A model generated the notes under the pieces. The model did no database searches, was not told the origin of the DNA, and worked only from the letters and a program-made list of their open reading frames with translations. A DNA stretch of 64,000 bases from the NCBI RefSeq assembly GCF_003336875.1, contig NZ_QGNJ01000005.1, positions 62,001-126,000 of the forward strand, given 5' to 3'. How positions within the stretch are numbered: position 1 is the stretch's first letter; every line of letters starts with the position of its first letter. Both the position numbers and the translations under genes were made by a program. This document shows, piece after piece, positions 10,439 to 64,000 of the stretch. Origin of the DNA: Oleisolibacter albus (GTDB taxonomy: Bacteria; Pseudomonadota; Alphaproteobacteria; Azospirillales; Azospirillaceae).

Positions 10439-10711
10439 ATGAAGTGCAAGGTATCGCAGCGTGTTTTCGTCGCCTCCGGTCGCGATGAGGACAACATCAA
10501 TGTCACATTGAACTGGTTGCTTGGATATTTTTCCAAGAAAAATAAGAATGTTCGTATGGTGTGTAGCCTTGCTGAAGCCGAGGATGCGCAGATTGATGTA
10601 GAGATCGAGGATAGCATTATCGGTAAGCTTGACGATAAGTTCGGTGAGCACGGCGATGCACTGATTTCCACATTGCTCGTGATCGCCTATGGCTTGGGAG
10701 GGGCGGAATGA
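10439..10711 (+). CDS. unrecognised small protein, WYL operon gene 2
   Basis: A 90-residue protein beginning MKCKVSQRVFVASGRDEDNI; a GTG directly upstream at 10436 would add one residue. It follows the WYL gene closely behind a GGGAGGAC ribosome binding site. It is acidic in the second half (AEAEDAQIDVEIEDSIIGKLDDKFGEHGD) and ends in a short hydrophobic run (LISTLLVIAYGLGG). Base composition is clearly poorer in GC than the flanking phage genes. No domain is recognised. The four-base ATGA overlap with the next gene indicates coupled synthesis, so it may be a partner or immunity-type protein of the 357-residue product. Confidence 0.7.
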   Translation: MKCKVSQRVFVASGRDEDNINVTLNWLLGYFSKKNKNVRMVCSLAEAEDAQIDVEIEDSIIGKLDDKFGEHGDALISTLLVIAYGLGGAE

Positions 10712-11781
10712 CGGACGTCGCTCGTGCGTGCCAATTATCGCTGTGTCAGCTTGATGACGTACAAAGTCGATTTGGCAAGCAGATAACTCCTGTAGAGCGC
10801 ACGCTTGGCAGCCTGGGGAAGATCTCTCCGCCTTCAAACGACCCGCGCAACTTCATTCTCCCCGTGCTCTACGGGGCGACGGGGGCCGCGATTTCAGCCT
10901 CCGATGCCGTCAAAGAATTTTCCAAAAAGATTCACGACATAGCGTCTAGTGGGAAGGCGCCGAAAACCGCGTTCGAACACATCATAAAGCTTCTCATGGG
11001 GCACAAGGATGATGCAATCGACGCTGTCAACGGCGAATACATTAACCGTGCTGGTGAGCGTGTGTCGTTTGGGATTCATCGCCTTATGTGGGGGCATGAC
11101 ATCTTCTCCATCGGACCGGACAACCCGTTTGCGCTTCTGATTAAGCAGGAAGGGAGCATATTCGGCGGAATCGCTCAGGTCTTCAGGCATCTCGTTGGCG
11201 ACACGTTTTCCAAGCAAGGGCTTCCTATCCCATTCCATTCTTTTTTCGACTATGTGCAAGACAACGGAAAGCTTGGGAACAGACTGTGGGATATTGCCAA
11301 ATCATCCACCAATGGCGGAGATGGTGCGGAGATCGTTCAGGCTTTTGGAAATCTCTTTACCATCAAGGCTGCTGATATTGGCGCGACGGGGCTGACTTCT
11401 ATGCTTTGCGCCGCCCACAATCGGGTCATGAACAGGGACGATGAGGCCGCGGCCAACCAAGTGAGGGTTATAGCGTATTCATCGCAATTCTTCGGTAAGG
11501 CCACCATCGGGGTCATGAAAACTGGTGTGCCATTTATCAGTTGGCCTACGGCGGTCATGACTATCAAGGAGATGTACTCGCTTTACCGAATCAACTACAG
11601 GGACATTGCTGAACTTGAGAAGGTGACAAAGCGGATTTATGACGAGAATGCCAGGCTGGAGGCGGAGGTGTTCGCCTCTGGCCGGGATCTGGTGAGTCAC
11701 GCGAGAGCCTCCGGCTACGTCCTTGAACTCACCGAATTCGATTCCCGCATGCGTTCCCTTGAAGATTTCTTTGATAGGTAA
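10708..11781 (+). CDS. unrecognised 357-residue protein, WYL operon gene 3
   Basis: The largest gene of the operon and the likely effector. No family is recognised. Visible features are an N-terminal Ser/Pro region, a Gly/Ala-rich segment (LYGATGAAISASDAVKEF, residues 54-71), and a striking His/Asp cluster: HRLMWGHD at 124-131, RHLVGD at 160-165 and HSFFDY at 177-182. This could be a metal or active-site constellation, but that is a guess. A mildly hydrophobic stretch (GKATIGVMKTGVPFISWPTAVM, 263-284) precedes a C-terminal helix (DIAELEKVTKRIYDENARLEAEVF). No signal peptide is seen. It is coupled upstream by ATGA and abuts the next gene with no gap. Confidence 0.8.
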   Translation: MTDVARACQLSLCQLDDVQSRFGKQITPVERTLGSLGKISPPSNDPRNFILPVLYGATGAAISASDAVKEFSKKIHDIASSGKAPKTAFEHIIKLLMGHKDDAIDAVNGEYINRAGERVSFGIHRLMWGHDIFSIGPDNPFALLIKQEGSIFGGIAQVFRHLVGDTFSKQGLPIPFHSFFDYVQDNGKLGNRLWDIAKSSTNGGDGAEIVQAFGNLFTIKAADIGATGLTSMLCAAHNRVMNRDDEAAANQVRVIAYSSQFFGKATIGVMKTGVPFISWPTAVMTIKEMYSLYRINYRDIAELEKVTKRIYDENARLEAEVFASGRDLVSHARASGYVLELTEFDSRMRSLEDFFDR

Positions 11782-57767: not shown

Positions 57768-58052
57768 ATGTCGCCCGGAGATCTTCCCAAGATCGCCCTT
57801 ACCCCCGAACTCCTGGCCACAATCAAGCAGGTCGTGGCTTCGGGTGAGTACAATTCGTCCAGTGCGGTCATCCGCGAGGCCCTGGAGCAATGGAAGGAAC
57901 GGCGGGATCTGCTGGGCCATTCCATCAACAGCCTGCGCCTTCTCTGGGAGGACGGGCTGGCCAGCGGCCGCGCCGAAGAGGGCGAAGGCATGCTGGAGGT
58001 GCTGGTCAAGCGCTACCGCGTGCGCGGCAACATGCGGGGAGAGGCGCTGTGA
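57768..58052 (+). CDS. ParD-like antitoxin
   Basis: A 94-residue ribbon-helix-helix antitoxin: PKIALTPELLATIKQVVASG, EYNSSSAVIREALEQWKERR, with an acidic flexible C-terminal half that neutralises the toxin. It binds its own promoter in known systems. It overlaps the ParE gene at GTGA. The promoter is presumably in 57700-57760 (AT-rich). Confidence 0.92.
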   Translation: MSPGDLPKIALTPELLATIKQVVASGEYNSSSAVIREALEQWKERRDLLGHSINSLRLLWEDGLASGRAEEGEGMLEVLVKRYRVRGNMRGEAL

Positions 58053-58351
58053 GCTACCTTCTGACCCCCCTGGCCCAGGCCGATATCCAGTCGCTGGGCG
58101 AGGAAGCCGCCGCACGCAGCACCAGCGATGCCGCCATCCTGATGGAGCAGCTGCACCGCCGCTTCCAGCTTCTGTCGGAATTTCCGCGATCCGGCGTCGC
58201 CCGCGACGATATCCGCCCGCGCATGCGGATCATCACCAGCGGCGATCTGCTGATCCTGTACCGCATCCGCGACCGTTTCGGGGACGAGGATGTGGAGATC
58301 ATCCGCATCAGTCCGGCCCAACGGCTGACCGGCGCCATCGGCCTGTTTTAA
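58049..58351 (+). CDS. ParE/RelE-type toxin
   Basis: A 100-residue toxin starting at GTG 58049 (read as MSYLLTPLAQADIQSLGEEA), coupled to the antitoxin stop by GTGA. The fold signature is LTPLAQADIQSL, helices QLHRRFQLLSEFPRSGVARD and the C-terminal strands MRIITSGDLLILYRIRDR and DVEIIRISPAQRL. ParE family toxins inhibit DNA gyrase; the sequence shows ParE superfamily, exact target not proven. Confidence 0.9.
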   Translation: MSYLLTPLAQADIQSLGEEAAARSTSDAAILMEQLHRRFQLLSEFPRSGVARDDIRPRMRIITSGDLLILYRIRDRFGDEDVEIIRISPAQRLTGAIGLF

Positions 58352-61255: not shown

Positions 61256-61402
61256 GCCCGGGGAGATGGCGGAGGGCTTTACCTGGGCCACCAACCTGTA
61301 GCAGAGTTGCCGCATGGTCATAGAGCCGCCGCACGTTCCCCCGTCCGCTCCCCGTGCTTCCGGCGCACGGCGGGCGGCGCGTTGCGTGCGTCCGGGGGCG
61401 GC

Positions 61403-62983
61403 ATGCTGAGGGGCTGGGCTGCGGCGCTTCTGCTCGGGCTCGGTCTCACCGGTGCCGCGACCGCGGCGCCGCCGGACCGGGACAAGGCCGTCCAGGAGAA
61501 CCCGGCCGCACGGAGCCGTGAACATCCGGCCGCCAACAGCAGCGGCGTGGCCCTGTTCACCAGCGGGTTCACCACCATCGAGGAGACCTTCCTCGATCCC
61601 GTCGATATGCGCAGGCTGACCCTGGATGGATTGAGGGGCCTGCAAAGCCTGGACCCCTCCCTGCGGTTCGAGGTCGATGGCCCCTCCCTCCAGCTTGTCA
61701 GCGGCGCGGCGGCCCTGGGGCAGTTCACCCTGCCGCCGAACAACGACCCCCGGGCCTGGGCCCTGGTCACGACACGCATCATCGAGCGTCTGCGCGCCAG
61801 CGCGTCGCCGCTGGGTGCCATCGACCGGGAGGACATCTATCAGGCCGTCTTCACCGGCATCACCGGCGATCTCGACCCCTATTCCCGCTACACCAGCCCG
61901 AAACAGGCGACCGAGGAGCGGTCGATGCGGGAGGGGTATGCCGGTGTCGGGCTGACCCTGGAGCATGTGGGGCGCCAGCACCGCATCGCCGAGATGGTCA
62001 CGGGCGGGCCGGCCCAGCGGGCCGGTCTGCATGTGGGGGACTTGCTGCTGGCCATCGATGGCGAGAGCACCGTCCCCCTGACACCGGATGAGATTTCCGA
62101 CCGGCTGCGCGGCCAGTCCGACACGGTGGTGCAACTCAGCATCGGCCCGTCCCTGCATCAGGCCCGGCAAGTGACGCTGCATCGCGCCTGGATCGTTCCC
62201 GATACCGTGAGCAGCGAGGTCATCGGTAAGGTCGGGCTGATCCGGATCAGCCGCTTCAACGCCTCCACCGCCGACGGGGTGCGGACGGCCGTGGCCCGGC
62301 TGCAGGCCCGCCTGGGCCGCGACGTCCATGGCTATATCCTGGATCTGCGCGGCAATCCCGGTGGCAAGCTGGACCAGGCCACCGCCGTGGCCGATCTGTT
62401 CCTGCGCGACGGTCGAATCATCAGCACCCGTGGCCGCCATCGCGGCAGCCTGCAGGAATTCGATGCCCATAGCGACGAGATCCTGGACGACAAGCCGCTG
62501 GTGGCGCTGATCGACGGACGCTCGGCCAGTGCAGCGGAAATCGTGGCGGCGGCCCTGCTGGACAGCGGCCGGGCCGTGCTGGTGGGCGCCTCCACCTTCG
62601 GCAAGGGCAGTGTCCAGACCGTCACCACCCTGCCGAACGGCGGGGAGCTGTTCCTCACCTGGTCGCGGATGTATGCGCCGAGCGGCTATACCCTGCACCG
62701 GCAGGGCGTGCAGCCCACCGTCTGCACCAGCAACGGCTTGCGCAGCGTGGATGAGGCCATGGCGTCCCTGCGTGCCAACCCGACGGTGCCGGCCTCGACC
62801 CTGGCCTTGTGGCGGATGCAGGCCCCCGAGAACGAAACGGCCCTGGCCGCCCTGCGCCAGACCTGCCCATGGAAGGAGCATGCTCCGACCCTGGATGTGG
62901 ACATCGCCCGGGCGCTGCTGGACGATCCCCCCCTCTATAACCGCGCACTGGCCCGGTCGCGGACGAATATGGCGGAGCGCTAG
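61403..62983 (+). CDS. S41 C-terminal processing protease
   Basis: A 526-residue periplasmic protease. A signal peptide lies at the N-terminus (MLRGWAAALLLGLGLTGAAT). The protein has an N-terminal S41 domain, a PDZ domain (YAGVGLTLEHVGRQHRIAEM; GPAQRAGLHVGDLLLAIDGE), and the catalytic core: YILDLRGNPGGKLDQATAVA, LIDGRSASAAEIVAAALLDS with Ser, and FGKGSVQTVTTLPNGGELFL with Lys. Length is typical. Substrates unknown. The ATG at 61403 fits the signal peptide; the frame extends farther without sense. The last 100 residues are poorly conserved. Confidence 0.93.
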   Translation: MLRGWAAALLLGLGLTGAATAAPPDRDKAVQENPAARSREHPAANSSGVALFTSGFTTIEETFLDPVDMRRLTLDGLRGLQSLDPSLRFEVDGPSLQLVSGAAALGQFTLPPNNDPRAWALVTTRIIERLRASASPLGAIDREDIYQAVFTGITGDLDPYSRYTSPKQATEERSMREGYAGVGLTLEHVGRQHRIAEMVTGGPAQRAGLHVGDLLLAIDGESTVPLTPDEISDRLRGQSDTVVQLSIGPSLHQARQVTLHRAWIVPDTVSSEVIGKVGLIRISRFNASTADGVRTAVARLQARLGRDVHGYILDLRGNPGGKLDQATAVADLFLRDGRIISTRGRHRGSLQEFDAHSDEILDDKPLVALIDGRSASAAEIVAAALLDSGRAVLVGASTFGKGSVQTVTTLPNGGELFLTWSRMYAPSGYTLHRQGVQPTVCTSNGLRSVDEAMASLRANPTVPASTLALWRMQAPENETALAALRQTCPWKEHAPTLDVDIARALLDDPPLYNRALARSRTNMAER

Positions 62984-63121: not shown

Positions 63122-63289
63122 ATGGCGAAGCAGAATACCGTACTGATCAAGCTGGTGAGCTCCGCGGACACCGGCTTCTTCTATGTGAAGAAGAAGAACC
63201 CCCGCAAGACGACCGAGAAGCTTGAGTTCAACAAGTACGATCCGGTCGCGCGCAAGCACGTTCCGTTCAAGGAATCGAAGATGAAGTAA
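63122..63289 (+). CDS. rpmG: 50S ribosomal protein L33
   Basis: A 55-residue protein: [55 protein letters not shown]. It is a zinc-free L33 (no CxxC), standard in alphaproteobacteria. AGGGCAGG sits nine bases upstream of ATG. A terminator follows within 35 bp. It closes the conserved topA-rnr-rpmG neighbourhood. Confidence 0.97.
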
Positions 63290-63591: not shown

Positions 63592-63930
63592 ATGACCCAG
63601 GATTCTGTCAATGTTTTGGATCAGGCGCGCAAGCACATTGAAGAAGCTCTGATCAAGAAGGCCGGCGAGGATGCCGGCTTCCGCGCACGCCTGCTGGCCA
63701 ATCCCCATGCCGCCATCAAGGAGATGATCGGCATCGATCCCATCCCCGCCACCAAGCTGACGGTGGTCGAGGAGAAGCCCGGCGAAGTGGTCATTGTGCT
63801 GCCGGCGGCCCTGTCGAACGTGGAACTGCCGGACGATCTGCTGGACCTCGCCTCCGGCGGCACCAGCTTCAGCGCGTTCCTTCCAGCCGATTACTATATG
63901 AATCCTGAGAAGTATCGCCGGAAGAAGTAA
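63592..63930 (+). CDS. RiPP precursor with NHLP-type (nitrile hydratase-like) leader
   Basis: A 112-residue precursor. Residues 1-90 match the nitrile hydratase-alpha-like leader of NHLP precursors: ARKHIEEALIKKAGEDAGFR, ARLLANPHAAIKEMIGIDPI and VVIVLPAALSNVELPDDLLD, ending LASGG, the double-glycine cleavage site. The core is the remaining 22 residues, TSFSAFLPADYYMNPEKYRR and KK, with several aromatic residues and no cysteine, so lanthionine chemistry is unlikely. Modification and export genes should lie beyond the window's right edge. GGGAG 14 bases upstream is a plausible ribosome binding site. AT-rich promoter DNA lies at 63530-63570. Confidence 0.82.
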   Translation: MTQDSVNVLDQARKHIEEALIKKAGEDAGFRARLLANPHAAIKEMIGIDPIPATKLTVVEEKPGEVVIVLPAALSNVELPDDLLDLASGGTSFSAFLPADYYMNPEKYRRKK

Positions 63931-64000
63931 TCGGACAGCGGGACGTCACGCCTGCCGTTGGGAATGCCACCGACCATGGCCCGCCATGGATCGAGGTCGC
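63931..64000. other. unannotated right edge of window
   Basis: Seventy bases after the NHLP precursor stop with no start codon of a recognisable gene before the end of the window. Confidence 0.3.

Follow-up and report, generated by a model that had tools for sequence, protein, structure and literature searches.

What does the open reading frame at the right edge of the window (the whole 64,000-nucleotide stretch analysed here, C40:62001-126000 of its assembly) encode, and what would act on its product? The earlier note had read it as a RiPP precursor whose NHLP leader ends in a GG site, and this reading holds. The protein, p1, matches the NCBIfam model TIGR03793 ("NHLP leader peptide family RiPP precursor") with 52.5 bits (E 3.2e-14), above the curated cut-off of 50.9; the match spans residues 13-90 of 112 and runs to the last position of the model, which falls at the GG. 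Pfam NHase_alpha scores 25.4 bits, slightly below its cut-off of 27.2. In the whole genome (4.69 Mb), TIGR03793 is found in exactly two places, p1 and a second gene past the window, p2, while 14 control genomes gave no match. The score above cut-off and the conservation in relatives rule out a chance ORF. The AlphaFold model of p1 is poor (pLDDT 63).

Variable cores and a wide range of modifications are typical of NHLP peptides. The core of p1 was described beforehand as unusual, rich in aromatic residues and lysine and free of cysteine; its 22 residues indeed include five aromatic residues, three Lys, two Arg and no Cys. Lanthipeptide or Cys-based azole chemistry is ruled out for both precursors, as neither core contains cysteine; the ORFs listed for the following 20 kb also include no gene resembling LanM. 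The placement of p1 after housekeeping genes is likewise borne out: an S41 peptidase with PDZ domains is followed by an ORF reading as ribosomal protein L33 (Table 1). A scan for promoters and terminators gave nothing above chance; it revealed no sigma-70-like promoter, a negative that means little in this group. Further upstream, ParD-like (RHH) and ParE-like ORFs in tandem (57768-58351) form a likely type II toxin-antitoxin pair.

Table 1 Features of the precursor locus. Positions are those of the window; past its end, contig positions are given with the extended window numbering.
Feature	Position	Strand	Basis
S41 peptidase with PDZ domains, upstream of p1	61307-62983		Pfam search
ORF read as ribosomal protein L33, upstream of p1	63122-63289		Reading of ORF
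p1, NHLP-leader RiPP precursor, 112 aa, ATG start	63592..63930	+	TIGR03793 above cut-off; 75% identity to p2 over whole protein
p1 leader, residues 1-90, end ...LPDDLLDLASGG	63592..63861	+	Alignment: invariant G89 G90; HMM match stops at residue 90
p1 core TSFSAFLPADYYMNPEKYRRKK, 22 aa, N-terminal FSAF conserved, tail diverged	63862..63927	+	Nucleotide identity to p2
TSFSAF, conserved core motif, last block common to p1 and p2	63862..63879	+	FSAF invariant in 11/11 aligned precursors
p2, second NHLP precursor	C40:126190-126525 (64190 onward)		TIGR03793 51.6 bits, cut-off 50.9
Tandem GNAT, 320 aa	C40:126615-127577 (to 65577)	same as p2	Acetyltransf_1

The second precursor gene starts about 260 bp downstream of p1, and its core, TSFSAFILYGPPYPDRKPKRG, also has no cysteine. 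A gap of 89 bp separates p2 from the gene of a tandem GNAT, 3' of which we find a GGDEF response regulator, a DinB-type polymerase, an EipB-like protein, aspS and rnd (names come from Pfam matches where tested and otherwise from reading the ORFs). The earlier note expected a biosynthetic cluster to begin just beyond position 64000. A second precursor and a GNAT are there, but the locus comprises just three genes with housekeeping genes next to it; a large gene cluster was dropped as a candidate, only two further genes being present. The search of the next 20 kb that the note called for thus returned a maturase candidate, the GNAT, but in the ORF list neither a radical SAM nor a transporter gene. 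The note's refuting condition, that maturation and export genes be absent from the following region, therefore applies by half, to export only. We now propose, at a probability of roughly 0.6, that p1 and p2 are the two precursors of a minimal, split, selidamide-like RiPP pathway, in which the GNAT would N-acylate the core and a distant exporter would cleave at the GG.

C39 peptidase domains occur in only two places of the genome, both on contig C23. This contig carries a complete NHLM operon by family membership: HlyD (TIGR03794, 315 bits against a cut-off of 156), the peptidase ABC1 (TIGR03796, 1002 against 853), ABC2 (TIGR03797, 775 against 709) and a cNMP-binding protein related to TIGR03896 (133 bits, below the cut-off of 161). 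It adjoins a divergent pair, a C39-ABC and an ABC gene. A Rhizobiales cluster (L131) has the same exporter set beside its precursor, with identities to the C23 proteins of 53% for ABC1, 40% for ABC2, 55% for the cNMP protein and 33% for the second C39-ABC. Exporter and precursor are linked in Niveispirillum irakense, Shinella and Rhizobium, but not in this genome. As the exporter genes are present on another contig, their absence nearby does not refute a RiPP; more generally, precursor and exporter can be unlinked, and an NHLP gene that looks like an "orphan" at the edge of a contig or window deserves a genome-wide check. One point against the proposal is that the unlinked C23 exporter could serve other precursors, such as the Nif11-like one on contig C12. 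There (~72.7 kb; L088:9712-10662 and 10698-11711), a second tandem GNAT has directly upstream of it a Nif11-like precursor ending in VAAGFPPRVESKMPTHTPDNSVTYGR.

Co-occurrence across genomes is consistent with the three parts working together. The close GNAT family (E < 1e-40) is present in 8 of 99 relatives, and all eight carry the precursor subfamily of p1 and p2; the two genes are adjacent in six genomes and on different contigs in two. NHLM_ABC1 passes its cut-off in 8/8 genomes with the precursor and in 14/91 of the others (Fisher 1.9e-6). Within the genus, the figures are 4/4 and 0/7 (p 0.003); in one of the seven, a fragment at a contig edge may be a true member, and counting it in gives p 0.015 (by hand). 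A precursor-only scan of species-representative contigs returned 25 loci. They come from Niveispirillum, Azospirillum, Novispirillum, Magnetospirillum, Pleomorphomonas, Pannonibacter, Rhizobium, Shinella and an Azonexus MAG. Among genomes recovered in this way and then tested, the GNAT family is present in 13/13 and NHLM_ABC1 exceeds its cut-off in 13/13; class-wide, the GNAT family is seen in 4 of 385 genomes. As the genomes are related to one another, none of these counts is fully independent.

In the sister species N. irakense (L134/L090), GNAT, precursor, ABC2, ABC1 and HlyD lie within ~9 kb, and the cluster continues with a regulator-like gene, a second GNAT and a Nif11-like precursor. 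A Shinella plasmid has an annotated NHLP bacteriocin exporter in the same gene group, and in the Rhizobiales clusters L131 and L123 the recognised genes are precursor, GNAT and exporter only. One NHLP core is fixed between orders, with a tandem GNAT as its sole recognised maturase. On the Shinella plasmid, a B12-type radical SAM gene (L114:9370-10830) stands between NHLP and Nif11 precursors; its best NCBIfam matches are BchE and PhpK-type, far below their cut-offs. A Nostoc plasmid NHLP locus has no GNAT of the p2-linked family within 12 kb on either side.

The enzyme itself is predicted to consist of two GNAT domains (AlphaFold, pLDDT 92.6). The closest PDB folds to the model are tandem GNATs, among them VipF, the clavulanic-pathway tandem GNAT and mycothiol synthase; the best-matching entries include 2wpw, 5kf1 and 7q3a. 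Acetyltransf_1 matches in the N-terminal half (Pfam, 42.7 bits, cut-off 20.7), and the P-loop residues R79 and G82 of the N-terminal domain are invariant in the family alignment. In NpuN, a Lys-acylating RiPP enzyme, the P-loop is also reported in the N-terminal domain of a tandem GNAT (PMC13060382). Fold and genomic context together suggest kinship with the selidamide GNATs, and an association of GNATs with such precursors is partly known already. Most GNAT relatives in our set adjoin NHLP- or Nif11-like precursors; the enzymes of Azospirillum sp. RU38E and Niveispirillum sp. SYP-B3756 are exceptions, with precursors on another contig. No precursor was found beside the paralog of the same genome at C12:106 kb, nor in two distant genomes. 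This paralog (L089:9229-10365) is a third tandem GNAT, on a long tree branch.

In the GNAT tree, 20 enzymes from NHLP-precursor genomes fall on one side of a 100/100 branch, with Nif11-linked and other enzymes opposite. The split follows the leader type of the partner precursors and suits a leader-guided maturase. It thereby speaks against a role of the GNAT in self-protection, by which the enzyme would acetylate and silence the peptide within the producer, the exported active form being unmodified. GNATs do act as self-resistance enzymes in other systems, and acylation by NpuN left bioactivity unchanged (PMC13060382), yet the authors of that study judged self-protection unlikely for NpuN (PMC13060382), and the Rhizobium and Pannonibacter clusters hold two divergent GNATs beside multi-precursor arrays. 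We regard this explanation as quite improbable.

The pathway that we favour would run as follows. Both p1 and p2 would be made with an NHLP leader; the tandem GNAT encoded 3' of p2 would bind the precursor and N-acylate its core, most likely on a Lys in the K-P-K segment at the C terminus, with acyl-CoA or acyl-ACP as donor and probably a fatty acyl as the transferred group. The C23 NHLM exporter, through the C39 peptidase of ABC1, would then cut after the GG and secrete an acylpeptide of 21-22 residues, Cys-free and basic at its C terminus. Selidamides carry the fatty acyl on a Lys or (hydroxy)Orn side chain, with which the conserved C-terminal Lys is compatible: in each of the 20 listed GNAT-linked cores of FSAF, FSSF or FTAF type, one or more of the final five residues is Lys.

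Could the same system acylate another group instead, namely the N-terminal amine exposed once the leader is removed, or the hydroxyl of a Ser or Thr in the FSAF block? GNATs acylate the new N-terminal amine in lipolanthines and goadvionins. Such GNAT-like enzymes have been reported for several RiPPs, and N-terminal acylation was proposed for the NHLP peptide PflA (PMC12636437); moreover, the FSAF block is conserved more strictly than the Lys tail. However, cleavage is expected at the exporter, after the cytosolic GNAT has acted, and FSAF-type cores differ in their first residue (T, I or V) while all of them keep a C-terminal Lys. These sites, which together with self-protection are the main rivals, appear unlikely, and acylation of the C-terminal Lys remains our preferred reading. 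PflA and PflB of Pseudomonas resemble our locus in pairing an NHLP-type leader with a neighbouring GNAT; unlike here, the PflA logo lacks a typical GG site and HEXXH and MNIO-type enzymes are encoded alongside (PMC12636437). PflB had no activity on full-length peptides (PMC12636437).

The selidamides (phaeornamide PhaA/PhaN, kamptornamide and the nostolysamides NpuA/NpuN) offer the closest comparison. They share with the p1/p2 system an NHLP or Nif11 leader, a peptidase ABC exporter with a GG-type site (PMC9505594, PMC13060382) and a GNAT encoded beside the precursor, which in NpuN is a tandem with the P-loop in its N-terminal domain (PMC13060382); one of them is from an alphaproteobacterium (PMC9505594, PMC13060382). 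Here, too, GNAT and NHLP precursor are encoded together. In contrast, we found no lanthionine synthetase, arginase or hydroxylase at the p1/p2 locus, exporter and precursor genes are not linked in this genome, and the p2-type core is more conserved than its leader. The known selidamide sites, Lys1 and ornithine, differ from the C-terminal Lys proposed here: the p1 and p2 cores have no Cys and no Lys1, and Lys only near the C terminus.

A further enzyme encoded elsewhere (radical SAM, LanM, YcaO or peptide arginase) might act on the core, with the GNAT step secondary, but we give this little likelihood. UPF0489 (PF12640), which we take to be the peptide-arginase family, matched in 0 of 8 genomes; no control genome matched either, which makes this a weak test. 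Related selidamides do carry lanthionine or ornithine as well (PMC9505594), and the radical SAM gene in Shinella adjoins a precursor. Nevertheless, the core is without Cys, and neither the 20 kb downstream nor the L131 cluster shows any of these enzymes.

With the NHLP (proteusin) family as described by Haft, Basu and Mitchell (2010), the system shares the TIGR03793 leader and the TIGR03794/03796/03797 exporter families, over curated cut-offs, and their co-occurrence across genomes (PMC2887384). It departs from the hypervariability after the GG that was described for these cores (PMC2887384): although the core of p1 does vary, that of p2 hardly changes from one order to another. Alpha- and betaproteobacteria (Niveispirillum, Novispirillum, Azonexus) share the p2-type core, TSFSAFILYGPPYPDxKPKK, at 86-100% identity, against 43-58% for the leaders. 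Compared with the corresponding precursors of Azospirillum sp. RU38E, N. irakense, Novispirillum and Azonexus, p2 has a core identity of 86-90% and a leader identity of 47-54%; between N. irakense and Novispirillum, the values are 100% and 43%. In these comparisons dN is 0.08-0.22 for the core and 0.42-0.58 for the leader, rough values given the short cores, and synonymous change is large or saturated in most. Variants of the core are ILYGPNDAPPKPKK in Azospirillum and VLYGPNDAPPKPRR in Shinella. A literature text search for the core sequence returned no paper.

At the DNA level, p1 and p2 are 84% identical through the leader and TSFSAF and 37.5% identical in the remaining core. This split identifies p1, as far as sequence comparison goes, as a recent duplicate of p2, or a gene-converted copy, with a new, diverged core tail. 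Is p1 then merely a decaying, non-functional duplicate? The tail has strongly diverged (37.5% nucleotide identity, core dN 0.54), but leader, GG and TSFSAF are intact, with a leader dN/dS of ~0.3 relative to p2, and the tail keeps the frame, is aromatic and has Lys as its last residue. RU38E and SYP-B3756 likewise keep one conserved and one diverged core each. We consider decay very improbable.

For p2, the best explanation is that it makes an ancestral, strongly conserved peptide. A partner core this close to invariant, unusual for a hypervariable class, points to a dedicated role. Tentatively, and with the odds rather against so specific a reading, these loci may represent a GNAT-only class of acylated RiPPs, in which FSAFILYGPPYPDxKPKK is near-constant while leader and enzyme diverge. 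Since the product would stay constant amid this divergence, it would probably serve as a conserved signal, or as a factor acting on the envelope, with a single fixed target, rather than belong to a combinatorial antibiotic library; some species would add a fast-evolving second version such as p1. One precursor and one enzyme make a small, testable system for leader-guided acylation and for conserved RiPP function.

Other arrangements were noted in further genomes. In Pannonibacter and Rhizobium (L128, L130, L132, L135), several NHLP precursors in tandem stand beside two divergent tandem GNATs; their cores are variable, often with one Cys and a C-terminal CPKK or CPPK. A distant genome of the same class (L151:8864-10121) combines three Nif11-like precursors with core Cys, a tandem GNAT and a full NHLM exporter. 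Finally, large NHLP precursor arrays in relatives give 8 to 21 matches per genome, most of them in one array (G023:C7, G031:C3, G039:C14, G042:C277, G054:C2 and G091:C42).
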